Shown here piece by piece: positions 39,599 through 53,838 of a stretch of DNA of 64,000 nt (positions within the stretch are counted from its first letter, which is position 1; the number at the start of each line of letters is the position of its first letter). A program made the translations under genes and the position numbers. The notes beneath the pieces were generated by a model that saw nothing but the letters and a program-made list of their open reading frames with translations, had not been told where the DNA came from and ran no database searches. The DNA comes from Sphingobacterium mizutaii (GTDB lineage: Bacteria; Bacteroidota; Bacteroidia; Sphingobacteriales; Sphingobacteriaceae), in assembly GCF_900187125.1 (NCBI RefSeq), contig NZ_LT906468.1:3658001-3722000 (forward strand). Direction: 5' to 3'.

Positions 39599-41380
39599 TT
39601 AGGACTTATTCGCTGCGTCCTTCAGATTATATTCAAGGTATCCACCTTTAGGGCTGTCCACGATCAGCTTCGCTGAACTTGGATTCCCTTTTACGATCCA
39701 TCTGACTTTCACGGAACTCATACCATCAATAGTAGGTACTTCGATTTGCTGTGGCTGATATTTTTGCTCTAGCGTTTCATTGAAGTCCGCGTTCAACACC
39801 TGCATCCCTGTTACCACCTGGGCACCTTCTAATCGGATATGGTTAGGGCGTTCTATCTTATGTCTCACATCATGGTCTGAGTGTGTAGGCACAATCCTCG
39901 TATTCCAAATGGTCGCATTCACTTCATATAAGTTACCGCCCAGAGGTTTGATACTGGATTCCATTACCTCCAATTTAGGCATGTGGTAGGCATGGTAAAT
40001 GGTAAATGCCGCATTTCGGTGTGCATCTTCCATCAACAAGAAGCCTGGGTGGTTACGGGTATAGTTTTTCTTGGCTCCACCAATCTCGATTTTGCCATAT
40101 TGTGGATGGTCAAATTCCTTCCATGGCACATAAGCATCACCGAACATCAATAGCTTATCAAACTCATAATACTCATCACTATTCCTTAACCCACCTTCTG
40201 ATTTTTCATTGAATAGCTTATAGGTAGTCATCAATTCGTTGGAGAAGGTAAAGATACCTCGTGTTAAGGCCAAGAAATCGATCTCGCCACCAAACACGGT
40301 ATAAAGATCTTTATGGATGACGATATAATCATAGCCCGGCAACATCTTCTCTCCAGTCTGACCTAAGGCATCATATACCTGAACGTCTTTCCTAGAATAG
40401 AATCTTTCATCATCCGCAGCACCAGGTCCCCGAAGGATCATACCGCCAAAGTTGTGGTAAGACTGTGCACCGGCAATATTAGGATGGGAATAGATAAATT
40501 TCTTGACGGCTTGGGTTTCAGGCAAAGTTCCTGGATAGTATAAGGCACCTCCCTGTACATAATTTGGCTGCCAGTTCCATCCCCAGTCACGGTTCGGGTC
40601 ATAGGTACCAGTGATATCTTCGTTGACCAAACCATCACCATCATTGTCGATCCCTTCAAATCCCAACATCTCATATTCACCCACCTCACCTGGTTTTACC
40701 ATCAGCATGCGGTTAGGATTTTCCGGATCTGCTTTGAATCTACCGGTCTTGGACTTGCGGCGCATCATTACAATTTCGCCATCGCCATCCAAATCATCAT
40801 ACAGATCTTCTGCTACCAGTCCGTCACCATCGTTATCAAACGGTCGACGGCCAGTCCTCGAAGAGTGCATGGTGTTCGGTTGATAAATAAAGTATTCGCG
40901 AGAATCGGGGTTGATCGTAGGTGCAATATAGAACACCTTATCCTTTAACAATTCCTTGATAAAGGGAACTGTATTATAGTTCTCCAATAGGTACCAAGCG
41001 GTATACATGGAAATCTCAGAACCTTGCAACTCATTGGCATGGATGTTACCATCGATCCACATTGCAGGCTTCCTTTCGGGTTGCCCTTGCTTGAAATCCG
41101 TTACGGTCAGGACAAAGATGTCTCTGCCTTCATAACTTTTTCCGATAGATTCATATTTAATAAGGTCGGGATAAGCTTTCTGCAGATCCTTGTAGAACTG
41201 TTCCATTTGTTTAAGGTCATGGTACCGGCTCCAATTCATCTGAACTTTAGGATTGGAGGGCGACCCTACTGCCCGGAGGCCAGCGATCTCTTTGCTGACA
41301 TCGTCGTTTTTCTTTTGGGCAAATGCTGCCGAAACACTCAGTGCTAAGGCAAGTGATAATATTTTATATGATAGTCTCAT
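39599..41380 (-). CDS. M14-family zinc carboxypeptidase with EF-hand-like inserts
   Basis: Secreted carboxypeptidase-like enzyme of 593 residues: signal peptide (1-21, SAAFAQ), then an M14 catalytic domain (about 50-390). Zinc ligands are H114 and E117 (IHANE) and H309 (SYHNFGG); the catalytic Glu is E382 (TFSNELMT). Calcium-binding-like loops interrupt the domain (FDNDGDGLVAEDLYDDLDGDGEI, about 181-202, and IDNDGDGLVNEDITG, about 244-258). A C-terminal beta domain (about 450-593) follows. It is encoded 13 bp after a related gene, so the two form one unit. Substrate is unknown. Confidence 0.9.
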   Translation of the reverse strand: MRLSYKILSLALALSVSAAFAQKKNDDVSKEIAGLRAVGSPSNPKVQMNWSRYHDLKQMEQFYKDLQKAYPDLIKYESIGKSYEGRDIFVLTVTDFKQGQPERKPAMWIDGNIHANELQGSEISMYTAWYLLENYNTVPFIKELLKDKVFYIAPTINPDSREYFIYQPNTMHSSRTGRRPFDNDGDGLVAEDLYDDLDGDGEIVMMRRKSKTGRFKADPENPNRMLMVKPGEVGEYEMLGFEGIDNDGDGLVNEDITGTYDPNRDWGWNWQPNYVQGGALYYPGTLPETQAVKKFIYSHPNIAGAQSYHNFGGMILRGPGAADDERFYSRKDVQVYDALGQTGEKMLPGYDYIVIHKDLYTVFGGEIDFLALTRGIFTFSNELMTTYKLFNEKSEGGLRNSDEYYEFDKLLMFGDAYVPWKEFDHPQYGKIEIGGAKKNYTRNHPGFLLMEDAHRNAAFTIYHAYHMPKLEVMESSIKPLGGNLYEVNATIWNTRIVPTHSDHDVRHKIERPNHIRLEGAQVVTGMQVLNADFNETLEQKYQPQQIEVPTIDGMSSVKVRWIVKGNPSSAKLIVDSPKGGYLEYNLKDAANKS

Positions 41381-41393
41381 TTCTTAGCAGATT

Positions 41394-43016
41394 TTATAGG
41401 TTAATATCTAGGGTTTTCTCTCCAGCAGTTGGGCATCCAACAGTCACTTGAACTTTCCCTTTTCCTTTGACCAACCAAGAGAAGGTATTTGAAGCACCTG
41501 CTTGTAGGGTTGGATAAAGCTGAAGGCGTTTGCCACTAAGGAAAGATTGTCCCTTTTGCAATTCCATAATGGACTTCATTTTGGAAACATGTTTGATCTT
41601 ATCTGCAATTTCTGGATACACAGGCATTGCTCCTGTATTGAAGACTTTCACTTCGATCCGGTAGATATCATCGCCAAGATTGGTCACTTTCGGGCTTGAG
41701 AATTCTAGGCTGGCAAGAGAACGGGTCAATTCAACTACAAAATTACTGTGCATCTTTGCTGAAGCTTCCAATAATGCTACGGGAGGGTTGTTTACAAAAC
41801 GTTCCACTACCCCACCGACTTCCACCTCTTGGTTAGGAAAATCCGGATGGCTTACCTTGGTCCATGGAAGGATAGCACCTTGAATCCCTTGGTTCTTTAC
41901 CCAGTTTACGAAACGGTCAGAATTATTGGTTGCTGGCACTTTTGGAGCAGCATTTTTGGTTGTGTCAGAAATGGTTGGAATCCACCATGAAGGCGTTACG
42001 AAACTGAATTTTCCGGCATGGTAGTAAATCGTTGGGCTCAGGTTTCCTTTACCAGCAGGCATTTTTGGCGCTTCACCCATTGGTTTCACGGCATCATTAT
42101 AGATCTTGCTCACAAATGCAGAAACTTGCGCATCGTTGTTTGTCCAAGATTTAGTAATTCTTTCTGAAGCTTTTCTTTGATCAAATTGCTCTGCAACAGA
42201 AAGATTGTTCTGTAAGCCAAAGTGTAGCACCGCAGCAATTTGTGGATTTTCGAAGATCAGATCAATGATCGCTCTGGTTTCAGGTTCTGAAGCTGCATAA
42301 TCGCCAGTTTCAGGTTCGAAGAATGGATAGTCAAACGTAAAGTTCTTATCTAGGTTGACACCAGTCTTACCATCTTCAGAAATAGCGCCATCTTGGTCCG
42401 CATCGCGACCTTCGGTATAAAGCTCGTAGTTGCCGGTTTCGCCTTTGTTGCGCTCGGCTAACACCAGGTAATCAGCATTGTTAGCATGAGAACGGTATGG
42501 CCCCGCTGGAGTTTTGATCCGCATTTGTGAAATCAATCCATCTTTGTTAAGATCAACCTCCGGATCTTCATCGATACGGCCGTCACGATCATTGTCTATG
42601 GTCCTGCCATTTCCAGAGGACCATGCTGCAGAATTGGAATTTCTTTTATAAGCATCAACATTGAGAACGGGAATAATCCAAATGGACTTATTAGCTAATA
42701 GTTCATTAAGTTGATCAGTAGGAAGGGCTAATATTTGCTTTGCAACATTTAAGGAATTGATTACGCCTGCAGGGTGTTTTCCATCAACTCCCGCAACGAT
42801 CAATAGTGTAGGTTTTGGAGTTTTTCCATTTTGGATTTTAATTAATGGGATGTCTTCAGAACCAACCGACTTTCCAATGGAAGTTCTTTCCACGAGTTTG
42901 TTTGAAGATACATCTTGAATTTGCTTTGTCAATGCATCGAAATTGGGATAATTCCATTGTGCATTTACAAAAAACGGCATGCCGCAGGAGAGCAGCAAAA
43001 TGATCCAGTATTTCAT
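41394..43016 (-). CDS. M14-like protein with degenerate active site (probable pseudo-peptidase)
   Basis: A 540-residue secreted paralogue of the downstream peptidase (signal 1-20). The fold is kept, including EF-hand-like loops (IDNDRDGRIDEDPEVDLNKDGLI and GRDADQDGAISEDG), but the HxxE zinc motif has become HPAG (H81, G84 in place of Glu). H265 survives in VLHFGLQNN. The catalytic Glu region (FSNE in the partner) reads FVTPSWWIP, with no Glu. It is therefore unlikely to hydrolyse peptides. It may chaperone, inhibit or form a complex with its partner, which follows 13 bp downstream. A change of chemistry cannot be excluded. Confidence 0.85.
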   Translation of the reverse strand: MKYWIILLLSCGMPFFVNAQWNYPNFDALTKQIQDVSSNKLVERTSIGKSVGSEDIPLIKIQNGKTPKPTLLIVAGVDGKHPAGVINSLNVAKQILALPTDQLNELLANKSIWIIPVLNVDAYKRNSNSAAWSSGNGRTIDNDRDGRIDEDPEVDLNKDGLISQMRIKTPAGPYRSHANNADYLVLAERNKGETGNYELYTEGRDADQDGAISEDGKTGVNLDKNFTFDYPFFEPETGDYAASEPETRAIIDLIFENPQIAAVLHFGLQNNLSVAEQFDQRKASERITKSWTNNDAQVSAFVSKIYNDAVKPMGEAPKMPAGKGNLSPTIYYHAGKFSFVTPSWWIPTISDTTKNAAPKVPATNNSDRFVNWVKNQGIQGAILPWTKVSHPDFPNQEVEVGGVVERFVNNPPVALLEASAKMHSNFVVELTRSLASLEFSSPKVTNLGDDIYRIEVKVFNTGAMPVYPEIADKIKHVSKMKSIMELQKGQSFLSGKRLQLYPTLQAGASNTFSWLVKGKGKVQVTVGCPTAGEKTLDINL

Positions 43017-43262: not shown

Positions 43263-44075
43263 TCATTCTGACTTCTCTTCCCTTCGATCTTGGGCAGACT
43301 TATCTTCAGCGACACCTGCTTTCCAATAGGAGAAAGCATAAAAATCTTTATTGGACCAACCTAGTTTATCCTTAAAATAAGAACGGAGTTCCTTTACAGA
43401 ACTATATTCACAGGCTACGTAAGCAAACTTCGATAGATTTGTGGGCAGTTGTACATCCATAGTCAAATGAGGAAGTGAACTTCCTTTTTCGGGTTCTGGA
43501 TTGATGAGCCACTGAAATTCAAATCCATCATGCTTTAATTCTGGATGGAAATCATGTTCAGAAGGAATTTCGATCAAACAATAGCCCCTAGCAGAAGCAG
43601 GCAGGCTCTCCAAAATACAGCTGATAACCGGAATAGCTGTTGCATCTCCGACCAAAAGGTACCAATCTACATTGGGATAATGTACTGTTTCCCTAATCTT
43701 CATAGCTACCCCTAATTGATCGCCTAATGTAGCTTTTCTGGCCCATGCAGAGGCTGGTCCATTCTCACCATGATTGACAAAATCAATCGTTATTTCTTGG
43801 GTCTTGGGATTGTATTGTCGATGGGTATAAGTACGCACGATTGGTTTTACATCCTCCTCGGGCATCACCCACTCCCCTTTTTCAGCATCAAAACTGGCAA
43901 ATTGAACATCTTTCTTTCCATGCGGCGGGATAAAGATCTTATTGTTTGCACCAGGGGTACATTTATCAAAATCTATCGCCTGATCCGACTTGAGGACAAC
44001 CCGGATATAATGTGGTGTAATGTTCTGCTTACCCGTTACTTTGAAAACATATTTTGAAATGATTGGCTTTTCCAT
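43263..44075 (-). CDS. Siderophore-interacting protein (FAD-dependent ferric-siderophore reductase)
   Basis: Reduces Fe(III) held by a siderophore in the cytoplasm so that iron is released. The 270 residues show the SIP/ViuB layout. An FAD-binding beta-barrel (about 8-120, TPHYIRVVLKS, RTYTHRQYNPKTQEITIDFVNHGENGPASAWA) matches the RxYTxR FAD motif and HGxxGPASxWA signature. An NAD(P)H-binding-like C-terminal domain (about 125-255) has YLLVGDATAIPVISCILESLP and YVACEYSSVKELRSY. No signal peptide. It is the last gene of the siderophore uptake operon, starting 6 bp after the binding-protein gene. Confidence 0.93.
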   Translation of the reverse strand: MEKPIISKYVFKVTGKQNITPHYIRVVLKSDQAIDFDKCTPGANNKIFIPPHGKKDVQFASFDAEKGEWVMPEEDVKPIVRTYTHRQYNPKTQEITIDFVNHGENGPASAWARKATLGDQLGVAMKIRETVHYPNVDWYLLVGDATAIPVISCILESLPASARGYCLIEIPSEHDFHPELKHDGFEFQWLINPEPEKGSSLPHLTMDVQLPTNLSKFAYVACEYSSVKELRSYFKDKLGWSNKDFYAFSYWKAGVAEDKSAQDRREEKSE

Positions 44076-44081
44076 CCTTAA

Positions 44082-45035
44082 TTATTGAATAAGTTTAACA
44101 ATATCATCTACCATTAAATTCACTGATGTAATACCTCCTCCAGAGATAAACCAAACATTGGGATCTAGGTAGAATAATTTATTGGACTTAGAGGCCTTGG
44201 TCTGTTTGATCAATTGATTTTCCACCTCTTCTTTGCTGGATTTCTTACCTAAAACAGCAGCATTTCGGTCGACGATAAACAAGTAATCAGGATTGGCCTC
44301 GGCGATCAATTCATTGGAAACCCTTTGTCCATGAACGGATTCATCATTCAGTTCCAGAACAGGCTTAATGCCTAATACATCATGGATAAACCCAAATCTT
44401 GATCCTTTGCCAAAAGCACTGAATTTCCCATTGTTGTAGATCAGGAACAAAGCTTTATGTGGATCTTGCTTGTATTTACTTTGGGCGGCAGCAATTTTCT
44501 CTTCCAAGGAGGCAAATTTTTCATTAGCTTTTGCTTCTTGGCTATAAATCCTACCGATCAGTTTGACATTGTTCTCAAAAGATGGGATGTAATTTTTATT
44601 ATCGGTTCCGATAAATACCGTTGGGGCGATCTCATTGATTTCTTGATAGAATCTTTCCAATCGGGTGGAAATAAAAATAATATCCGGTTTTGTCGCAGCA
44701 ATGGCCTCGAAGTCGGGTTCAATAACTGATCCTACATCCGCCACATCGGGATTATCTTGGATTGATTTCAGGTAGGAAGGAAGGAATTTCTTGGGTACAC
44801 CTACAGGCACAATACCTAATTCGTTCATGGTTTCCAATGCACCGATATCCAGTACCACGCTGCGTTTGGGATTTTTTGGGATGATCAGCTTACCCATTTT
44901 GTGCTCAATATGTAGCGTATCGCTGTCCAATGTATTTTCAATTTTAGATGAATTGGATTGGCAGGATAGCAATAGAAAAGACAAACACAAAAATGCGAAG
45001 GCTTTCCAAATTATATTTCTTAGCATAGTATTCAT
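44082..45035 (-). CDS. Ferric-siderophore ABC transporter, substrate-binding lipoprotein
   Basis: Periplasmic side of the inner-membrane importer. I start at 45035 (MNTMLRNIIWKAFAFLC...LLLSCQSN), one base after the ATPase stop; it has a clear lipobox LLSC. The 317-residue body is a class III binding protein of the FatB/YclQ/CeuE group: HKMGKLIIPKNPKRSVVLDIGALETMNELGIVPVGVPKKFLPSYL, then KPDIIFISTR, SQEAKANEKFASLEEKI and DRNAAVLGKKSS. This group binds catecholate siderophores with conserved Arg/Tyr residues. Confidence 0.92.
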   Translation of the reverse strand: MNTMLRNIIWKAFAFLCLSFLLLSCQSNSSKIENTLDSDTLHIEHKMGKLIIPKNPKRSVVLDIGALETMNELGIVPVGVPKKFLPSYLKSIQDNPDVADVGSVIEPDFEAIAATKPDIIFISTRLERFYQEINEIAPTVFIGTDNKNYIPSFENNVKLIGRIYSQEAKANEKFASLEEKIAAAQSKYKQDPHKALFLIYNNGKFSAFGKGSRFGFIHDVLGIKPVLELNDESVHGQRVSNELIAEANPDYLFIVDRNAAVLGKKSSKEEVENQLIKQTKASKSNKLFYLDPNVWFISGGGITSVNLMVDDIVKLIQ

Positions 45036-45036
45036 T

Positions 45037-45819
45037 TTATAGATTGAAATAATTACAGATTCTTTTATTGTTGATCTCGATAATATTGAATTCCAGATCA
45101 AATATTTCGTGAAGGATCTTTGCATCGATCACCTTATTGGTCTGATCGTTATAGAGAATTTCACCATCCTTCAAGGCGATAATTTGGTCGGAATATTGGG
45201 CAGCGAAATTGATTTCATGGATGACCATGATCACGGTTTTACCCAATTCATCGACCAGGCGTCGCAAGGTTTTCATAACATGGACGGCATGTTTCATATC
45301 AAGGTTGTTCAGAGGTTCATCGAGTAAAATAAAATCAGTGTCCTGGGCGATAATCATGGAGATAAATGCCCTTTGTCGTTGTCCCCCACTTAATTCATCG
45401 ATATAGGAATCCTTTAAGGCAGTGAGGTCAGAAAACGCGATGGCATCATCCACTTTCTTCCAGTCCAATTCGCTCAGCTTACCCTGGCAATAAGGAAACC
45501 TTCCAAAGGAAACCAGATCCCTAACGGTCAATTTCAATTCAAGATGATTGGACTGTTTTAGAATGGATAGTTTTTTTGCCAATTCAGAACTTTTATAGGA
45601 GGATAATTCCTTTTCGAAGAAAGCCACCTGACCGGCATCTTGCTTGATCAATCGGCTAATTATTGCCAATAAAGTACTTTTTCCGGCACCGTTTGGTCCG
45701 ATTAATGAAGTGATCTTTGCATGTGGAAAACCACCTGTCAGATTTTTCAACACTTCTTTTTTTCCATAACGCTTTACAATGGCGTCAAAGTTTAACTTAT
45801 TCTTTTCCTGGTCAACCAT
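45037..45819 (-). CDS. Ferric-siderophore ABC transporter, ATP-binding protein
   Basis: Energises import through the two neighbouring permeases. The 260-residue protein has Walker A GPNGAGKSTLL, signature LSGGQRQRAFI, Walker B FILLDEPLNNLD and switch His in VIHEINFAAQY, typical of FepC/YclP. Its N-terminus overlaps the end of the permease gene by 28 bp, and the lipoprotein gene follows after 1 bp. Transcription is from the minus-strand operon. Confidence 0.95.
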   Translation of the reverse strand: MVDQEKNKLNFDAIVKRYGKKEVLKNLTGGFPHAKITSLIGPNGAGKSTLLAIISRLIKQDAGQVAFFEKELSSYKSSELAKKLSILKQSNHLELKLTVRDLVSFGRFPYCQGKLSELDWKKVDDAIAFSDLTALKDSYIDELSGGQRQRAFISMIIAQDTDFILLDEPLNNLDMKHAVHVMKTLRRLVDELGKTVIMVIHEINFAAQYSDQIIALKDGEILYNDQTNKVIDAKILHEIFDLEFNIIEINNKRICNYFNL

Positions 45820-46745
45820 AATAAATACATAAAATAAATTCCGCCGATAAAATTGATAATGATACTGACCGTTGTGGTAAATCCGATAACCTGTTCCACA
45901 AGGAATTGCCCTAACACTAAGCAGAGCGCAGCTATAACTGCACTGATAGGCAGCATAAATTGATGCTTTCTGGTCCTGAAAAGCTCATAGGTCAGGTTAC
46001 AGACCAAGATTCCGAGGAAAGTAATGGGCCCTACCAAAGCAGTGGACACGGAAACCAACAGGGTGATGCAGATCAGAAATCTTTTGATCATTTTGTTATA
46101 ATCAACCCCTAGGTTTATGGCGTGGTCTTTTCCCAAAGCGATCACATCGAGATAGCGTAAATTGAAACTGATATAAGTGATGGCTGCCAACATGGTGATT
46201 GCAGCGATGCTGAGCAATTTGGTATTCATCTTGGCGAAAGAGACGAACATGAAATTCTGTACCATCGAAAATTCATTGGGGTCGATCAGGACATGTAGGA
46301 ATTGGCTCATGGTCATAAATAAGGTTCCAAACACCATTCCTGTAAGCAAGAGATAATACATGCTTTTCTTATCCTTGCCAAACATCAAAAAGTAGATCAA
46401 TAGGGAGAATCCCAACATCAAAACCACAGCATATACAAAATTCTCCTGCTGGTTGATCACTTGGAAGGCCCGATCTCCATAGATAAACACAATCACCGTC
46501 TGGAATAGGATGAAGATGGCTTCATAGCCCATAATAGATGGAGTCAAAATCCTATTGTTGGTAATCGTCTGGAATAAAATCGAAGAGTAGGCGACAGAAC
46601 ATCCCACTATCAACATGCTAAAAAGTCGAATGGACCTTTTACTGATGGCATAGTCATTGGACAGATCAACCTTATAAAATAGAAACAAGGCAATCACAAT
46701 CAGCAGGAGACATAGCAATAATGAAAATTTGAGGATTGGTTTCAT
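45792..46745 (-). CDS. Ferric-siderophore ABC transporter, permease (second)
   Basis: FecCD-family integral membrane subunit of 317 residues with about 9 helices. Signatures are SRSI-type RSIRLFSMLIVGCSVAYSSILFQTITNNRILTPSIMGYEAIFILFQT and LVGPITFLGILVCNLTYELF (conserved G-P-I-x-F-x-G). It resembles the YclO/FatC branch and pairs with the permease encoded immediately upstream (3 bp gap) as a heterodimer. Confidence 0.93.
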   Translation of the reverse strand: MKPILKFSLLLCLLLIVIALFLFYKVDLSNDYAISKRSIRLFSMLIVGCSVAYSSILFQTITNNRILTPSIMGYEAIFILFQTVIVFIYGDRAFQVINQQENFVYAVVLMLGFSLLIYFLMFGKDKKSMYYLLLTGMVFGTLFMTMSQFLHVLIDPNEFSMVQNFMFVSFAKMNTKLLSIAAITMLAAITYISFNLRYLDVIALGKDHAINLGVDYNKMIKRFLICITLLVSVSTALVGPITFLGILVCNLTYELFRTRKHQFMLPISAVIAALCLVLGQFLVEQVIGFTTTVSIIINFIGGIYFMYLLWLTRKRIS

Positions 46746-46748
46746 TTC

Positions 46749-47732
46749 TTATTTCTTTTTAAGGATTAAGATTAGGAACACAATTCCGCCGATGATCCCT
46801 ACGGTCATGCCAATTGGTACTTCATAAGGAAAGACAATCAGCCTACTGATCAAGTCGCAAATAATCAGGAAAACTGCACCTACGTAGGCAATGATTGGCA
46901 GGATCTTCCTCAAGTTGTCACCGAATACCATGCTCACCAAGTTGGGGATGATCAGCCCTAGAAAGGGTATGGCACCGACAGTGAGTACCGATGAACTGAC
47001 CACAATGGAAACTGTAAATAGGCCGATATAGACAATGCTATTATAGGAAAGACCTAAGTTTTTGGCAAAGCTCTCCCCCATTCCTGCGATCGTGAAACGT
47101 TCAGCAAATAAATAGACCAGCAGCACCGCTGGAAGAATAATATAGATGGCTTCATACTGCCCTTGCATAACGGAAGAAAAATCCCCGAGCAACCATTCCT
47201 GCGTACTTTGCACGATACCCTTTTCATATGCAAAAAATGTTGAAATAGCACTCAGGATACTTCCAAACATCAAACCCACCAATGGTATAAAAACAGTGCT
47301 CCGCAATTTGATCTTGCTAATAAAAAATATGAACAGTAAAGAGGTGAAAAACGTGAAAAGCAGTGCAAAGATCATCCTGACCGAAAGTGAGGATTGTGGG
47401 AAAAGGATCAGAGCTGTTAATATACCCATCTTAGCGGCTTCCAAGGATCCTGAGGTTGTGGGTGAAACAAACCTGTTTTGCGATAATTGTTGCAAAATAA
47501 AACCGGATATGCTCAATCCAGCACCCACTAAGATCAATGCCAAGGTCCTAGGGATTCGGCTAATCACAAAGAACAGCATCTTTTCACTATCTGAAAATAA
47601 TTCAGAATAATGGATATCCTTGACTCCAGTGAAAAGTGAAATCCAGATTAAAACTAAAATAACCCCCATGGCAAGTATCCATAGCAGGTATTTATTCTTC
47701 AATAAACTCAAATTCTCCAATTCCTTAAACAT
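46749..47732 (-). CDS. Ferric-siderophore ABC transporter, permease (first)
   Basis: FecCD-family subunit. I start at 47732 (MFKELENLSLL), which gives 327 residues; the open frame extends upstream through unlikely sequence. It shows about 9 helices and family motifs FVISRIPRTLALILVGAGLSISGFILQQLSQNRFVSPTTSGSLEAAKMG and VGAIPFLGLIIPNLVSMVFG. YclN/FatD branch. A 98-bp gap separates it from the YncE gene upstream and holds an imperfect hairpin (47782-47813) that may tune readthrough. Confidence 0.93.
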   Translation of the reverse strand: MFKELENLSLLKNKYLLWILAMGVILVLIWISLFTGVKDIHYSELFSDSEKMLFFVISRIPRTLALILVGAGLSISGFILQQLSQNRFVSPTTSGSLEAAKMGILTALILFPQSSLSVRMIFALLFTFFTSLLFIFFISKIKLRSTVFIPLVGLMFGSILSAISTFFAYEKGIVQSTQEWLLGDFSSVMQGQYEAIYIILPAVLLVYLFAERFTIAGMGESFAKNLGLSYNSIVYIGLFTVSIVVSSSVLTVGAIPFLGLIIPNLVSMVFGDNLRKILPIIAYVGAVFLIICDLISRLIVFPYEVPIGMTVGIIGGIVFLILILKKK

Positions 47733-47830
47733 TTTAACAGCTCTCTTTAAACCGTTAAGATGATTTGATAATAAAATGAAACTATGCCCTATTCCATACG
47801 GATTAGGACATAGCAATCATCAAGATTTTA

Positions 47831-48877
47831 TTAATTGATTTTAGTGATGGTATCGCCATTTTTGTCCACTACAACAGGTTGCCCTTCCACTGGTCTACCT
47901 CCTTTAGTTTTGTTGATGATAAAAGCTTCTCCAGTTTTCGGATCTATTTTTACATGATTAGGATGAGAACCGGTTGGCAGATCAGCTAGCACTTCTAGCG
48001 TCTTAGCATCGATAATGCTGGTCGTTCCTGTTTGGCGATTTGCAGAATAAATCCTGTTTTTCACTTTATCATAAGCAATTCCTATGGCCCCATCGCCAGT
48101 TGGGATACTCTTTAATAGATTTCCTTCAGGACCTAATACAGTAACTGTACCTGACTTCTGATTGGCCACGAACAGGCGTTCTCCATCCGAAGTAATATTT
48201 ACAGGAGACTCTCCGCCTGATGGAAACTGCATATCCACTTTTTTACTTTTCACATCAACGACATATATGGCATTTTCACCAATAACAGTCACATAGATTT
48301 TATCTGTACCTTTTAAGAAAGTCATGCCAGTTGCAGTCTTTCCAAGGTTATCCAAAGAATGGGAATAGGTATTGGTTTTCCCATCAATAACCCAAATATT
48401 ACTAGGATCACCCACATCGGATACATAGATCAGGTTATTGTCTTCATCCACCAATACCTCACGGGTATGGGATTCCTCGGCACCGTTTTTAATGGTTGCC
48501 AATAACTTTCCGGATTTAAGATCAACGGCACTGACCGAGTTTGTTCTTGTATTCGTGGTGTAGGCAGTCTGAGTTTTGTTGTTTATTCCTATACCGAATG
48601 GCGGATTTTCCTTTAAGCTGATGCTATCCACAATGGCCAAATCCTTTGGATTGATTTTAAAGATGGCACCACCTGGTTTCGTACGAGAACCAGCTGAAGT
48701 CACATAAATATGTCCGTCATTTGAATTGATTACGGCTTCATAAACACCAGTTCCGGCAGGAGAAGATTTTACTACCTTTTGGCCAAAAGCCAAGGTACTG
48801 CAAAAGAATAACCCTGTACTGAGGAATAGAGCTTTTGAAAGGATTGAGCACTTGTGATTGAAATGAATTGTGTTCAT
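47831..48877 (-). CDS. YncE-type beta-propeller protein
   Basis: A 348-residue exported protein (signal about 1-32, STLAFGQ) built from repeated YVTN-like blades: GHIYVTSAG, NNLIYVSDVG, DKIYVTVIGENAIYVVD, ERLFVANQKSGTVTVL and NRIYSANRQTGTTSIID. Seven-bladed propellers of this type act as binding platforms; E. coli YncE is iron-regulated. Here it is encoded 2 bp after the esterase inside the siderophore locus, so a periplasmic ferric-siderophore binding or hand-over role is a sensible inference, not proven. It has no lipobox. Confidence 0.88.
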   Translation of the reverse strand: MNTIHFNHKCSILSKALFLSTGLFFCSTLAFGQKVVKSSPAGTGVYEAVINSNDGHIYVTSAGSRTKPGGAIFKINPKDLAIVDSISLKENPPFGIGINNKTQTAYTTNTRTNSVSAVDLKSGKLLATIKNGAEESHTREVLVDEDNNLIYVSDVGDPSNIWVIDGKTNTYSHSLDNLGKTATGMTFLKGTDKIYVTVIGENAIYVVDVKSKKVDMQFPSGGESPVNITSDGERLFVANQKSGTVTVLGPEGNLLKSIPTGDGAIGIAYDKVKNRIYSANRQTGTTSIIDAKTLEVLADLPTGSHPNHVKIDPKTGEAFIINKTKGGRPVEGQPVVVDKNGDTITKIN

Positions 48878-48879
48878 AG

Positions 48880-50028
48880 TTACTTATTTATATATATAGA
48901 GTTAATTTTTGAATTCCAGTGTAGATAGAAATCTTCGAATGCCTTTTGCCAATAATATGCGCCATGTTTTCCTTCGGGATTGACATAGCGTGTTAATTTG
49001 CCTGAAAAATGATTTTTTATCCATTCGAAATAGCGATCGAGGTCAATTTTCATATTGTTATGGGCATCCATCAATCGAAATCGTCTTTCCCGATCTCCCA
49101 TATAAAAGTAGAATTCCTGTTCAGCCCTATTTATACCCTTGCTGAGCATATTTTCCGAATAGGCATATAAATTATCTTCATCCATCCAGATCGATGGAGA
49201 AAATATGGCTACGGTGCCAAAGACCGCTGGGTATTTCAGTCCAGCATAAAGAGTAAGCAAACCAGCAATAGAACTACCTAACATAGAAGTATGCATGGGA
49301 CCTGGAAGGGTCCTATAGTTACTGTCTACAAAAGGTTTTAAAGTTTGTACGATATCTTCGAGATAATGCCAACCCAAGGCATTCTTGGTTCCTTGGACTG
49401 GATGCACCAGGTATTCTTGCTGTCTTAATTCATAATCCTTTGCATGATCGATAGCGACCACTATGGCAGAAGAATCATATCCATCAAGGAATTCATCGAC
49501 CATCCATTCTACAGGCCCCGACCTTCCAATTGATCGCGCCTCATCGAAAAGATGCTGGCCATCATGCATATAAATGGTTGGGTATCGTTGGCCTGACTGC
49601 TGATAATCCTTGGGTAAATAGATCATGACCTTTCGATACACATTCATTTCCGGAAAATAGAAATGATCGTCTAAAGTAAGTACCTGTTTGCTTGCTGTGG
49701 ATCTAGGGAATAGATCTCTCCAAGAATCGATTTCCAAATTGATTTCAGCATCTCGTTGTACTTTGAAAACTTGAGGTGATTTTAGTTTTCCATCACGAGT
49801 AGCCTCTAACGTCAGCCAATTCCCTCGGGTAATCTTTAGTTCAAGGTCTCCGGTTTGTACATGGGGAATCAGGCATCTTACAGATTGCCCAATTGGAGGG
49901 ATAGTTCCGACCAACAGATGTTGGGGATCCCAATTATTGAAAGTACCAGCAAGGAACAAAGGCTCACCTACGTAATGTTCACAATTGTTCAAAATGTTTA
50001 CTGCTATCTCAATGAATTTTTTGGACAT
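48880..50028 (-). CDS. Fes-like siderophore esterase
   Basis: Alpha/beta hydrolase that may cleave the ester backbone of a ferric catecholate siderophore. The 382-residue protein has no signal peptide, so is cytoplasmic. An N-terminal beta domain (about 1-105) carries FLAGTFNNWDPQ, as in AMPK/CBM48-like modules. The esterase domain (about 115-375) has TIYMHDGQHLFD, the nucleophile motif GSSIAG (251-256, Ser253) and a late His355 in GKHGAYYW. It is the first gene of the minus-strand siderophore operon and divergent from the TonB receptor. Other acyl esterase activities are possible. Confidence 0.85.
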   Translation of the reverse strand: MSKKFIEIAVNILNNCEHYVGEPLFLAGTFNNWDPQHLLVGTIPPIGQSVRCLIPHVQTGDLELKITRGNWLTLEATRDGKLKSPQVFKVQRDAEINLEIDSWRDLFPRSTASKQVLTLDDHFYFPEMNVYRKVMIYLPKDYQQSGQRYPTIYMHDGQHLFDEARSIGRSGPVEWMVDEFLDGYDSSAIVVAIDHAKDYELRQQEYLVHPVQGTKNALGWHYLEDIVQTLKPFVDSNYRTLPGPMHTSMLGSSIAGLLTLYAGLKYPAVFGTVAIFSPSIWMDEDNLYAYSENMLSKGINRAEQEFYFYMGDRERRFRLMDAHNNMKIDLDRYFEWIKNHFSGKLTRYVNPEGKHGAYYWQKAFEDFYLHWNSKINSIYINK

Positions 50029-50066
50029 AAATAAATGTTTGTATATAGCAATTTGACTCGTAGCTA

Positions 50067-50085
50067 ATTTAGATAGATTCTAAAT
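50067..50085. promoter_or_regulatory. Candidate iron-repressor (Fur-like) dyad ATTTAGA-TAGAT-TCTAAAT
   Basis: Perfect 7-bp arms with a 5-bp spacer lie in the 133-bp gap between the divergent esterase operon and TonB-receptor operon. The position would control both directions. The half-site TCTAAAT resembles iron-box variants reported in several bacteria, but I cannot confirm the Fur consensus for this group. Confidence 0.45.
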
Positions 50086-50161
50086 AAATGACAAATTTTA
50101 TTTAAACTAATTATAAATAAAGCTATATTTACCAGCAAATCAACGTTATTTAGGAGTTAGA

Positions 50162-52558
50162 ATGAGTTTTTTCAAGAACACACTATTCATATTAATTAGC
50201 ATTTTCAGTTCCAATTTAGGTTTTGCACAACAAGGAAGTACCATTCAAATCGATGTAATCGCTGATCAAAGCAAGGAAAAGATTGCTGGGGCAAGCCTTC
50301 ATTTTGCTAATCATGCGGGAAGCACAAACCAAGATGGATCTTATCATGCAGAGGGAGTAAAAGCCGGTCAATACGAAATTGAGGTAAAGGCTGTCGGCTA
50401 TAAACCCTATAAAGGAACAATCACAAAAAACAGTTTTGAAGACTTGCATTTGGTCCTTTCTCTACAAGAGGAGGTATCGCGGATTGAAGGTGTAACTGTC
50501 CTAGGAAATTCGGAGAACAAAAAAATCAAGCAAGCAGCAATCCGCAACATATTTATAGATACCAGAGCGGTCTCTAGTCAAGCCATTTCCTTGAGTGACC
50601 TGATGAACCGAAGCACAGGAATTAGGGTACGACAGAATGGAGGCTTAGGTAGTCGACCTGAACTATCTGTGAATGGCTTTCAGGGAAAAGCAATCAAGTA
50701 TTTTAAAGATGGGATTCCATTGGACTATTTAGGTGATGGTTATAATCTATCTTCCTTACCAATCGAAATGCTGGACCACGTAGAAATCTACAAAGGGGTT
50801 TTGCCTGTTTCCCTTGGTTCGGATGCCTTAGGCGGAGCAGTCAACCTAGTTAGCAGAAAAGGTCAAGGAAAGCATGCCAAGGTATATTATGAACTGGGGT
50901 CCTTCCAAACCCATAGATTAGGCTTGATGGGGTCTAACCTTTCAAAGGATGAAAAATGGGCTTACGGCGGAGAACTCTTTTATAATTATTCGGCTAATAA
51001 TTATAAGGCATTGGTGGATGTCGTAAATCCTGAAACCAAAAACAAGGAACCTCAACGCCTCCCTCTCTTCCATAATGCTTACCGACATTATTTGGGTGAA
51101 GTCTTTGCCAGTATGCGGAACCGCAGTTGGGCAGATGAACTTAAGTTTAGCCTTACAGGGTTTAATCTCTATAAGGAACAACAGCATCCAGCTTTAATGA
51201 CCGACGCGTATGGCGCTTTGCATTCCAAGCAAAGAACCTTGGCCCCATCGCTGCGATATAAGGCAAATTTCTGGGACAATAAACTCCGGATCGACCAATT
51301 CAATTCCTATAATGTGCTGCAGACCGAAAGAATCGACACTTTAAAAGGCACTTATGATTGGTTCGGGAATTTTAAGCCTGGTACCAATTTTGGAGAAAGT
51401 CGCCTACCCTCCCAATCTAAGATCGACGAGAAGCAATGGGTCAATAGAACCAACTTGAGTTATTTAATAACCCCAAAAAGCAAGGTAGAATTAAACTATG
51501 TATTCAGTTCGGCAAACCGATCTGGGGAGGATCCTTTTGGGGTGAGGCTGGAAGGTTCAAACATCGATATCCTCACTTTGGCATCAACCTATCAGAAACA
51601 TGTATTTGGTCTATCCTATGAGCAATCGCTTCTAAATGAAAAATTGACCAATCAGTTAATGGGGAAATACTATATCTACAAAGCAAAAGGATATCAAAAC
51701 ACTTGGTTCTCCGTGGACATTACGGAAAAAGACATACGGAACACTTCTGCTGATTATTGGGGCATTACCGAAGCCATAAAATATCAGTTCTCTGAAAACA
51801 ATTTTTTAAGGGCCTCAGCAGAGTATACCTATAGACTGCCAGAAAGGGAAGAATTGTTTGGAAACAATATCTTCATTGTCCCTAATTTCGAATTGGACCC
51901 AGAACGCAGTTTAAATTTTAACCTAGGCTTGAGCACTCAGCCCCTGAAAGCCTTGACAGTTGAATTGAACAGTTTCTATAGGAACACGAAAGGTTTGATT
52001 CTACTGGTTCCTATTCAAGCCCCGAATGCCCAATATCAAAATCAAGAGAATGTACGTGGATATGGAGTAGATCTGGATATTAAATACCAGGTCACTGAGC
52101 AATATCAATTGTCGGGAAATGCCACTTGGCAGGATTTGAGACTATTCGGAATTAAAAATGCGCAGGATTCATGGAAAAATGATGCACGATTAAGGAATAC
52201 CCCCTATTTCTTTGCTAACCTTGGTGCAACTGCTAACTATAAGGATCTCTTTCAAAAAGAGAATAGCCTGCAGCTCTATTTGAACTACAATTTTATGCGC
52301 GAGTTCTACCTAGAGACCATCCCAAAGGAAGCTGAACCCGGAGGCTTTTTGGGCCTATCAGGCAGTGCGAACCTGAGTTCCAATTTAATAATCCCCGATC
52401 AACACCTATTAAATGCAGGTTTTACCTATAAATTCCATAAAAATCATTTTGCTATTGGAGCAGAGGCTAGAAATATACTCGGCAAGGATATATATGATTA
52501 TTACCGGGTACAACGCCCTGGCCGAAGCTTCCATTTAAAACTTAGTTATCAAATATAA
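50162..52558 (+). CDS. TonB-dependent siderophore receptor
   Basis: Outer-membrane gated channel of 798 residues. Signal peptide (1-22, LGFAQQ), carboxypeptidase-regulatory-like domain (about 27-110, KIAGASLHFANHAGSTNQDGSYHAEGVKAGQYEIEVKAVGYK), plug domain (about 120-235, LSDLMNRSTGIRVRQNGGLGSRPELSVNGFQGK and LGSDALGGAVNLVSRKG) and a 22-strand barrel ending in the aromatic-rich FHLKLSYQI. The mid-plug motif DHVEIYKGVLPVSLGSDALGG is diagnostic. The DUF4374 lipoprotein gene follows after 20 bp, paired like receptor and surface lipoprotein. Ligand is inferred to be a ferric siderophore from the neighbours. Confidence 0.95.
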   Translation: MSFFKNTLFILISIFSSNLGFAQQGSTIQIDVIADQSKEKIAGASLHFANHAGSTNQDGSYHAEGVKAGQYEIEVKAVGYKPYKGTITKNSFEDLHLVLSLQEEVSRIEGVTVLGNSENKKIKQAAIRNIFIDTRAVSSQAISLSDLMNRSTGIRVRQNGGLGSRPELSVNGFQGKAIKYFKDGIPLDYLGDGYNLSSLPIEMLDHVEIYKGVLPVSLGSDALGGAVNLVSRKGQGKHAKVYYELGSFQTHRLGLMGSNLSKDEKWAYGGELFYNYSANNYKALVDVVNPETKNKEPQRLPLFHNAYRHYLGEVFASMRNRSWADELKFSLTGFNLYKEQQHPALMTDAYGALHSKQRTLAPSLRYKANFWDNKLRIDQFNSYNVLQTERIDTLKGTYDWFGNFKPGTNFGESRLPSQSKIDEKQWVNRTNLSYLITPKSKVELNYVFSSANRSGEDPFGVRLEGSNIDILTLASTYQKHVFGLSYEQSLLNEKLTNQLMGKYYIYKAKGYQNTWFSVDITEKDIRNTSADYWGITEAIKYQFSENNFLRASAEYTYRLPEREELFGNNIFIVPNFELDPERSLNFNLGLSTQPLKALTVELNSFYRNTKGLILLVPIQAPNAQYQNQENVRGYGVDLDIKYQVTEQYQLSGNATWQDLRLFGIKNAQDSWKNDARLRNTPYFFANLGATANYKDLFQKENSLQLYLNYNFMREFYLETIPKEAEPGGFLGLSGSANLSSNLIIPDQHLLNAGFTYKFHKNHFAIGAEARNILGKDIYDYYRVQRPGRSFHLKLSYQI

Positions 52559-52578
52559 AAACACAAAAATTAAAGGTT

Positions 52579-53838
52579 ATGAAAATCAATAGATTCAAAG
52601 CATCCGTTTTATTTATGTTCAGCATGGGGATTTTTGCTAGTTGCAGCGAAGACTCAACTGGTCCGACGCCTGTTGAACCGGAAGGCAAAGATAAATATGT
52701 ATTAATTACCATGAGTGAAAACAACTTGCAGAAACCAGGCTTTGCAACAGCATTTGATGCTATACCTTCGGGCAATGTTGTCAATAATGGAAGTAATAGT
52801 TATCAGGGTTTGGGATTTGGAGGATGGAGACCACATGGCAACCAGCTCTTGAAAATGTTCAATAGCAAGACCAATGAACTTGGAATCGATCAATTATTGG
52901 TTGATGCTAATGGAAAGATCAGTGCTGGTAAATTTATTGCCGCTGATAATAATAGTAATGGTTCAGGAAACTTTGTCATCGTGGATGATAATAAGGGGTA
53001 CTATTGGGATGGCGCATCACCATTGAAGATTCAGACCTTTAATCCAAGTAATATGACCAGGACCGGTGAATTGGATTTTGCGACTGTTGTCAATGAAAGA
53101 GGCCAGAATGTTCCTGAAATCCTTTATAGGTCCATTGGGCAGAAATTTCTAGCAGCAAAAGGCGGAAAACTCTTTGCAAATATCAGTTATGCCAAAACTA
53201 ATGGTCCACAAAAAGGCTTTTTCGACGATTATTTTCCAGATGTCTATATAGCGGTCATTGATATAGCTTCGGGAAAGTACGAGAAAACCATAAAAATTGA
53301 GGATACTGGTTCCATTGCCTACATCAATGATAATAATATGTATGACTTCGACAGCAATGGAGATCTCTATATCGTTACGCAAGGACGCAGCGCCGTTGGA
53401 GGCAAATCCAAAATAGTGCGAATCAAGTCGACAGAAACAGACATCGACAAAACTTGGAGCCTTAATATGGATGAGATCCAAGAAGGAGGCAAGTTTGTTT
53501 CAGTTTTTGCGAAAGATGCTAAGATCATTACTGTCATTCCAAATACGAAATTGACTGCTGGTCCAACTGGGAACATCAATTTTGAAAACGTTTGGGAATT
53601 TTATCAGATCGATATAGCGAGTAAACAAAGGACCAAGATCACTGGAATTCCTGCTGTTACAAATCCAGGTGCTGCCTTTGGCGCGATTGAACTGGACGGA
53701 AAAGTTTTATTAAGGGTAAATACCAAGGATGGAAGCCAGAACGGTTATTATGAATTGACTGGCACTTCTGCGAAAGCCTTGTTCAATGTTACTGCTGGTG
53801 GTTCAGTATCTGGCCTTTACAAGATTATAGTCGGATAG
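52579..53838 (+). CDS. DUF4374 surface lipoprotein (XusB-like siderophore-binding candidate)
   Basis: A 419-residue lipoprotein (signal 1-21, lipobox FASC, Cys22) with a DUF4374 propeller-like body: KYVLITMSENNLQKPGFATAFDAIPSGNVVN, YQGLGFGGWRPHGNQLLKMFNSK, GKLFANISYAKTNGPQKGFFDDYFPDVYIAVIDIASGKYEKT. In gut Bacteroides, a DUF4374-type lipoprotein paired with a TonB receptor (the XusAB system) captures foreign siderophores; I recall this from the literature and cannot check it here. Placement directly after the receptor gene fits the same role. Confidence 0.88.
   Translation: MKINRFKASVLFMFSMGIFASCSEDSTGPTPVEPEGKDKYVLITMSENNLQKPGFATAFDAIPSGNVVNNGSNSYQGLGFGGWRPHGNQLLKMFNSKTNELGIDQLLVDANGKISAGKFIAADNNSNGSGNFVIVDDNKGYYWDGASPLKIQTFNPSNMTRTGELDFATVVNERGQNVPEILYRSIGQKFLAAKGGKLFANISYAKTNGPQKGFFDDYFPDVYIAVIDIASGKYEKTIKIEDTGSIAYINDNNMYDFDSNGDLYIVTQGRSAVGGKSKIVRIKSTETDIDKTWSLNMDEIQEGGKFVSVFAKDAKIITVIPNTKLTAGPTGNINFENVWEFYQIDIASKQRTKITGIPAVTNPGAAFGAIELDGKVLLRVNTKDGSQNGYYELTGTSAKALFNVTAGGSVSGLYKIIVG

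Follow-up and report, generated by a model that had tools for sequence, protein, structure and literature searches.

A divergent locus in Sphingobacterium mizutaii is predicted to couple XusB-like siderophore capture to whole-complex import and cytoplasmic cleavage

We analyzed a stretch of 64,000 nucleotides from Sphingobacterium mizutaii (contig NZ_LT906468.1, positions 3,658,001 to 3,722,000, hereafter the window) that contains two divergent units with a total of nine genes predicted to take up a ferric siderophore. The genome is one contig of 4.65 Mb that is 99.98% complete, and the host bacterium is probably environmental. As shown in Table 1, the rightward unit consists of a TonB-dependent receptor (TBDR) followed after 20 bases by a lipoprotein. 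The leftward unit runs, with short or overlapping gene gaps, from an esterase through a YncE-like propeller, two FecCD permeases, an ATP-binding cassette (ABC) ATPase and a siderophore-binding lipoprotein to a SIP-type reductase. The initial annotation had described a nine-gene divergent siderophore locus, and this description is upheld as a check of the open reading frames (ORFs) found all coordinates and strands as stated, and Pfam backs every gene label (SIP, Peripla_BP_2, ABC, FecCD twice, YNCE, PF00756 and Plug) except the DUF4374 label that had been given to the surface lipoprotein. As read from the translations, two gene starts probably need revision. Specifically, permease 1 likely begins at an ATG near 47732, and the binding-protein ORF, which is open to 45125 and would overlap the ATPase ORF by 89 bases, likely begins at an ATG near 45035.

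Table 1. Predicted genes and promoter element of the divergent locus, with positions in the window
Feature	Position	Strand	Basis
SIP-type ferric-siderophore reductase	43263..44075	-	FAD_binding_9 and SIP, Pfam 101 and 100 bits
Siderophore-binding lipoprotein, CeuE/YclQ family; His kept (44331-44333), Tyr replaced by Phe (44148-44150)	44082..45035	-	Peripla_BP_2; CeuE homologues E 1e-82 to 7e-69
ABC ATPase of siderophore importer	45037..45819	-	ABC_tran; FecE-like 236 bits, cut-off 375
FecCD permease 2	45792..46745	-	PF01032 175 bits
FecCD permease 1, TTG-started ORF	46749..47816	-	PF01032 221 bits
YncE-like propeller, N-terminal signal sequence (by eye), presumed periplasmic	47831..48877	-	PF21783 37.9 bits; NF052280 (YncE) 180.6 bits, cut-off 400
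E-set/CBM48-like plus alpha/beta-hydrolase esterase, no hydrophobic N-terminus	48880..50028	-	PF00756 91.5 bits
Fur-like box ATTTAGA-N5-TCTAAAT, perfect palindrome	50067..50085		Only 0-mismatch site in window; weaker second copy 50100-50118
TonB-dependent receptor, CarboxypepD_reg N-terminal domain, MxcH-like	50162..52558	+	Plug and CarbopepD_reg_2; NF038079 (MxcH, best NCBIfam family) 435 bits, cut-off 925
XusB-like lipoprotein, propeller, hookless type, presumed surface-exposed	52579..53838	+	24-row alignment; model; Foldseek, VIA-align, profile

The surface lipoprotein appears to be a relative of XusB. Searched as a protein it matched no Pfam family up to an E-value of 0.01 and no NCBIfam family, and in the genome search it scored 19.1 bits against PF14298 (DUF4374), under the cut-off of 25, so that the DUF4374 label does not hold. 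A profile of 24 lipoprotein relatives had a sole match in the PDB up to E 10, which was Bacteroides fragilis XusB (E 2.3e-6). The AlphaFold model of the lipoprotein (predicted local distance difference test score, pLDDT, of 87.5) likewise retrieved B. fragilis XusB at all of ranks 1-6 in Foldseek (E 5e-16). VIA-align of the model gave Z scores of 29.5 and 29.3 to B. fragilis XusB over 357 and 355 residues, with BtuG next best (Z 23.0) and the hooked Barnesiella XusB at Z 21.4. No entry titled B. thetaiotaomicron XusB stands among the best 50 Foldseek or VIA-align matches, which proves nothing, and no mention of PDB code 9HRJ was found in the open-access literature. By profile and by modelled fold, the closest solved relative is the hookless, ferrichrome-binding B. 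fragilis XusB. The lipoprotein is 419 residues long including its signal sequence versus ~465 for the hooked catecholate-type XusB; judged by this length and by the VIA-align Z scores, with the loop coordinates uninspected, it is not of the hooked type. The lipobox cysteine (Cys22) is invariant in 24 of 24 lipoproteins and is followed by acidic residues, a possible signal for export to the outer leaflet.

The loop known as the hook matters for the cargo. Silale et al. (PMC13142918) report that the hookless B. fragilis XusB binds ferrichrome and that hooked XusB binds ferric enterobactin, and they propose that the hook predicts a catecholate versus a hydroxamate ligand. By this published rule the hookless window lipoprotein would be a hydroxamate binder. 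A comparison of the ferrichrome pocket was dropped as a test of the ligand, since it comes down to one weak alignment: the C-terminal profile alignment, read by eye at low identity, shows no conservation of the B. fragilis XusB residues Trp235 and Trp323.

The receptor upstream of the lipoprotein is MxcH-like at a score below the family cut-off, and three other receptors score similarly against the same model (390-409 bits). The divergent promoter between the two units is predicted to carry an iron-type (Fur-like) element. Its palindrome matches the predicted Fur box of Riemerella anatipestifer, a member of the same phylum, at 16 of 19 bases, and in that organism Fur is reported to have bound promoters with such boxes in gel shifts (PMC5609570). 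At least 12 of the 14 palindrome positions are present upstream of the receptor in 46 of the 64 regions examined, and for 47 of the 64 fewer than 5% of mononucleotide shuffles score as well; these 64 include some further receptors from the same stretches. The palindrome is missing upstream of the receptor in seven Chryseobacterium loci. Sites with up to three mismatches to the palindrome number 10 in the window, which equals chance (mean 9.7). Near 11 palindromes outside the window, Pfam analysis of 10 proteins from eight loci gave receptor plugs (L221, L230), a CarboxypepD_reg N-terminus (L226), a ferritin (L228) and otherwise a mixed set. An E. coli-type 19-base Fur consensus was also tried on the divergent region and set aside as unconvincing (best 14/19 vs a shuffle mean of 12.2), in favor of the Riemerella box and of the palindrome that had been noticed in this region.

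Regarding the binding protein, residue alignment places it nearest to CeuE and its thermophilic homologues. The iron-binding histidine, which in CeuE sits on a flexible loop, is conserved within the motif VHGQ, and three arginines aligned with those touching the catechol oxygens are kept. The iron-binding tyrosine of the homologues is a phenylalanine in the window protein, as it also is in one CeuE chain (5lwh). According to PMC5382913, Campylobacter cleaves enterobactin in the periplasm before import, and the CeuE substitution Y288F raises the dissociation constant (Kd) for a tetradentate complex to >1 uM with loss of tetradentate binding. Relatives of the binding protein were found in 45 of 399 genomes.

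The esterase at the head of the leftward unit shares the traits of Fes-type enzymes in that it has a PF00756 domain, putative serine and histidine catalytic residues and no hydrophobic N-terminus. Ser253, His355 and Glu314 are invariant in 13 of 13 aligned esterase rows, and Ser253 is probably the catalytic nucleophile, with His355. When the fold of its model (pLDDT 88.2) is compared, CBM48-CE1 feruloyl and acetyl-xylan esterases come first (E 3e-14), followed by the fungal siderophore hydrolases EstA/EstB (6e-11 and weaker) and, over the full length, Fes (~2e-10). The modelled fold thus leaves the substrate undecided, and it is the operon context that points to a siderophore. A phylum-wide search at E 1e-60 found relatives of the esterase in 58 of 395 genomes.

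We compared the tyrosine position with the predicted location of the esterase across related loci, after dropping near-identical copies (>98.5% identity) from the binding-protein set (67 to 52 rows) and likewise from the lipoprotein (LIP) places and esterase sets. Secretion was judged by an N-terminal hydropathy rule and not by a trained signal-peptide predictor, and this divided 43 distinct esterases into 24 without a hydrophobic N-terminus (score <=1.34) and 19 with one (>=1.90). Among the 24 loci of the former kind the binding protein has phenylalanine in 23 and tyrosine in one (L164). Of the 19 loci with a secreted-type esterase, five encode a CeuE-type protein in the same orientation, and it bears tyrosine in each case (L055, L073, L074, L166, L170); the other 14 have no same-strand CeuE-type protein, and three of these have a tyrosine protein on the opposite strand. 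Another 21 CeuE-type proteins have no esterase in the examined stretch, which for some (e.g. L117) ended before the expected esterase position, and 20 of these carry tyrosine, including one divergent protein that also lacks the histidine, while the one with phenylalanine is on a 6.8-kb contig. On the tree, from which L163 (a divergent binding protein with arginine replacing the histidine) was left out, the signal peptide changes once and the tyrosine/phenylalanine position twice, giving one independent pair. A statistical link between the two traits was therefore rejected, and we read the phenylalanine plus the unsecreted esterase as a coherent sequence signature that is one evolutionary event.

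Two further components of the inner line are conserved among relatives. The SIP reductase is the final gene of the inner cassette, and a YncE-like gene accompanies the esterase in 37 of the 40 LIP places that have an esterase (the exceptions are L047, L071 and L113). We know of no settled role for YncE. In E. coli it is described as Fur-regulated (PMC5120174). One of the exceptions, L113 in genome G147, is a window-type island that lacks both the YncE-like gene and one FecCD permease, and it constitutes a natural test of the need for the YncE-like gene and the second permease. Conversely, in same-strand islands of Parapedobacter (L059, L062, L072, L076) the first YncE-like propeller is followed by another of a different kind.

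The absence of siderophore synthesis genes claimed by the initial annotation agrees with the genome-wide searches, in which the non-ribosomal peptide synthetase condensation domain (PF00668) and IucA/IucC (PF04183) each had no match and the catechol ligase model TIGR02275 had five, all sub-threshold (best 115.8 of 723.55 bits); isochorismate genes were not part of this search. The lysine/ornithine monooxygenase model PF13434 gave six partial matches over its cut-off, and this model is unspecific as it rings in 12 of 14 control genomes. With no condensation or IucA/IucC domain and no catechol ligase over cut-off in a complete genome, the cargo is likely a foreign siderophore.

We next consider how the outer pair and the inner line are combined in relatives. 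A GTDB genome scan gave 56 loci, which together with stretches from the family were thinned to 68 LIP places; these still include a handful of truncated duplicates (e.g. L156 of L046 and L161 of L041), so that the totals of 68 and 40 are slightly too high. Within the family, 41 of 301 genomes have a relative of the lipoprotein. The receptor is strictly adjacent to the lipoprotein in 60 of the 68 places, under a tight limit that misses some overlapping pairs. There are two main layouts. One is the divergent arrangement of the window; in the other, same-strand layout the order is receptor, lipoprotein, esterase, YncE, and there is mostly a different importer nearby, the binding protein of which forms a separate cluster in 11 loci. 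Some of the more remote lipoproteins are accompanied by PepSY proteins. In seven Chryseobacterium loci (L088-L094) a distant receptor-lipoprotein pair lies behind a GNAT acetyltransferase and a lysine/ornithine monooxygenase (typed in L089), and these pairs may serve lipoprotein-aided uptake of the bacterium's own hydroxamate siderophore.

Of particular relevance is genome G238, from the same genus, where the inner cassette (L164) stands in one run behind a different receptor and a 469-residue DUF4374 protein (614 bits). Identities to the window are 49% for the esterase, 64% for YncE, 70 and 68% for the permeases, 70% for the ATPase, 57% for the binding protein and 66% for SIP. The DUF4374 protein matches both B. 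thetaiotaomicron XusB (E 1e-124; chains identified by residue numbering) and Barnesiella XusB (E 2e-101). Of the residues that PMC13142918 lists, Ser121-123, Arg167, Ser168, Tyr189, Tyr411 and Gln413 are conserved in it, and Asn120, Ser254 and Arg255 are replaced (alignment read by eye). In genome G244 (L160) the receptor and DUF4374 protein opposite the cassette are of yet another, third kind. Finally, among window-type loci, the binding proteins form a clade L042/L044/L046/L063/L069 that is rejected for the lipoprotein tree in an approximately unbiased (AU) test (p-AU 5e-36); this group was picked from the inner tree, with its lipoprotein identities seen beforehand. Together, the G238 and G244 pairings and the AU test suggest that the outer head has been swapped while the inner machinery remained constant. 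The pairing of the inner cassette with a hooked, enterobactin-type XusB in G238 favors, indirectly, a catecholate as cargo of the inner line. The exchange of outer heads is our main argument for such a cargo, and also for a possible failure of the hook rule in the case of the window lipoprotein.

The G238 protein also bears on the architecture of XusB itself. It (L164:2098-3504) aligns with B. thetaiotaomicron XusB (9gbc/9hq1) in swapped order, with residues 152-465 matching 28-347 and 51-148 matching 355-457, whereas it aligns with Barnesiella XusB (9gar) in one stretch (51-466 to 18-462). B. thetaiotaomicron XusB thus has the look of a circular permutant, and this could account for the unusual placement of its hook; the word 'permut' was not found in the main text of PMC13142918.

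Overall, we favor a reading, to which we assign a probability of about 0.6, in which the locus drives Fur-controlled import of an intact, foreign, ester-linked ferric siderophore that is cut and reduced in the cytoplasm, with an enterobactin-class catecholate triester as the likeliest cargo. The gene content, family ties, phenylalanine, esterase N-terminus, promoter element and outer-pair exchange are computed, and from these we infer each transport and enzyme step as well as the cargo. Iron starvation would switch on the import line. By homology with XusAB, the XusB-like lipoprotein would sit on the TonB receptor and hand over the ferric complex, and the CeuE-family lipoprotein would then receive this complex in the periplasm, still intact and probably hexadentate, and deliver it to the FecCD/ATPase importer. 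The cytoplasmic esterase would cut the ester backbone and the SIP reductase would reduce the iron. Our best guess for the YncE-like propeller is that it carries or chaperones the ferric complex within the periplasm. Loss of the CeuE-type tyrosine and of the esterase signal peptide would together mark a shift from periplasmic cutting and fragment import to whole import and cytoplasmic cutting. The Xus-type capture, dedicated ABC importer and cytoplasmic hydrolysis proposed earlier all have counterparts here, as the XusB relationship, the ABC importer, an esterase with no signal sequence and the reductase are present. The more specific proposal of a triester catecholate such as enterobactin is not established, as the lipoprotein is nearest to hookless XusB and the binding protein has no CeuE tyrosine; a catecholate is the substrate class that we favor over the others.

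Several observations weigh against this reading. The lipoprotein is of the hookless type that the XusB authors tie to hydroxamates (PMC13142918). The esterase scores 31.9 bits against the enterochelin esterase equivalog NF007758, which has a cut-off of 222, and its nearest folds are the feruloyl and acetyl-xylan esterases. The tyrosine/phenylalanine and signal-peptide changes fall on one branch, and L164 combines tyrosine with an unsecreted esterase. Moreover, genome-wide the Fur-like pattern with up to one mismatch has 12 distinct sites vs 11 for a reversed control, which is no excess. In addition L048, the sole representative tested from the separate binding-protein cluster of the same-strand layout, scores best, among NCBIfam models, against the one for ferrichrome/ferrioxamine B transport (299 bits, cut-off 374).

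The last of these points also feeds the strongest competing explanation, in which the same import line carries a fungal or rhizobial hydroxamate triester (fusarinine C, triacetylfusarinine C, coprogen or vicibactin class) whose esters are cut by the esterase. The same-strand loci with this other binding protein have homologous outer pairs and esterases, the hookless lipoprotein is nearest to a ferrichrome-binding XusB, the tyrosine that serves tetradentate catecholates is lost, and EstA/EstB are among the esterase fold matches. We nevertheless consider a hydroxamate cargo unlikely given that the binding protein belongs to the CeuE/YclQ family with its histidine and three catechol-contact-aligned arginines kept, that the receptor is MxcH-like, and that the inner cassette occurs with a hooked enterobactin-type XusB in G238. 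The apparent absence of the two ferrichrome-pocket tryptophans points the same way, weakly in view of the low identity. A linear bis-catecholate (e.g. myxochelin or azotochelin), with the esterase serving something else, would suit the MxcH-like receptor and the CeuE-family binding protein. Such linear bis-catecholates have no ester, and CeuE-type proteins found apart from an esterase carry tyrosine in all but the one case on a short contig. With the Y288F substitution, the same as that in the window protein, also raising the Kd of CeuE for a tetradentate complex above 1 uM (PMC5382913), we regard this explanation as improbable. It is more improbable still that what the receptor, lipoprotein and esterase act on is no siderophore but an ester of a plant phenolic or a carbohydrate, as the CBM48-CE1 fold of the esterase might hint, since a SIP reductase, a CeuE-type binding protein and a FecCD importer are in the same unit, the lipoprotein is related to XusB and the promoter has a Fur-like box.

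Comparison with known systems indicates which parts of the favored import line are shared and which differ. E. coli FepA-FepBDGC-Fes imports the whole complex and hydrolyzes it in the cytoplasm, as we propose for the window, which differs by adding a surface lipoprotein and a YncE-like propeller and by an esterase far below the Fes cut-off. In BtuB-BtuG a propeller lipoprotein also serves as a TBDR lid, but the ligand there is B12 and the fold similarity of BtuG, the second-best match, is lower than that of XusB. XusABC of B. thetaiotaomicron and B. fragilis (PMC13142918) shares with the window a TBDR with an N-terminal carboxypeptidase-like domain beside a propeller lipoprotein, as well as, probably, foreign siderophores as cargo; induction by iron starvation is published there for B. 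thetaiotaomicron XusB, and the window has its Fur-like box. Unlike XusABC, the window has no PepSY_TM among its nine genes, has a lipoprotein under the DUF4374 threshold, and adds the binding protein, FecCD permeases, ATPase, unsecreted esterase, SIP reductase and YncE-like propeller. The xus operon of Parabacteroides distasonis combines a XusB-type lipoprotein with an esterase, BDI_3403, but this esterase is called periplasmic and its operon has PepSY (PMC13142918; set apart here by description), whereas the window esterase lacks a hydrophobic N-terminus and stands with an ABC importer. Campylobacter CeuBCDE with the periplasmic esterase Cee (PMC5382913) has a CeuE-family binding protein, an ABC importer and an esterase in common with the window, which differs by phenylalanine at Tyr288 and an unsecreted esterase; the five tyrosine-bearing relatives with a secreted esterase fit the Campylobacter logic. 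Thus, Xus capture itself is known, and what is new here, as read from sequence, is a Xus-like capture head on a line of ABC importer, esterase and reductase, presumably for an ester-linked foreign siderophore. We found no published description of this arrangement in the open-access literature, among the matches listed.

Other loci in the same genome and next to the island are also of note. A classical Xus order of TBDR, DUF4374 lipoprotein (143.9 bits) and PepSY_TM is present elsewhere in the genome of the window (L096, G000:C1:1883945-1889981), as is a second DUF4374 match with an internal stop (L097, G000:C1:4106021-4106572), an apparent remnant with no relative of the window receptor within the surrounding 14 kb. 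Two M14 zinc carboxypeptidase genes (39599-43016) adjoin the SIP gene and share its strand. Related pairs are found close to the island in G127 and G147 and immediately after YncE in L054 (a metagenome-assembled genome of Leadbetterella sp.), and are absent from the other seven island flanks examined.

These results link the Xus capture proteins, whose structures were solved recently, with a complete predicted route into the cytoplasm in Sphingobacterium-like Bacteroidota, and they place YncE-like proteins beside a presumed siderophore esterase. A broader model that we offer tentatively, as we think it somewhat doubtful when taken as a whole, is one of an exchangeable outer head. In this model, hooked and hookless XusB-like lipoproteins would deliver to one and the same importer, esterase and reductase, and the hookless head would, contrary to the hook rule, carry a catecholate or other ester-linked siderophore. 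A single tyrosine-to-phenylalanine step, along with the esterase losing its signal peptide, would have shifted cleavage from the periplasm into the cytoplasm. The locus is a sharp test of the hook as a predictor of ligand class, and it provides a natural experiment on why CeuE-type proteins need their tyrosine.

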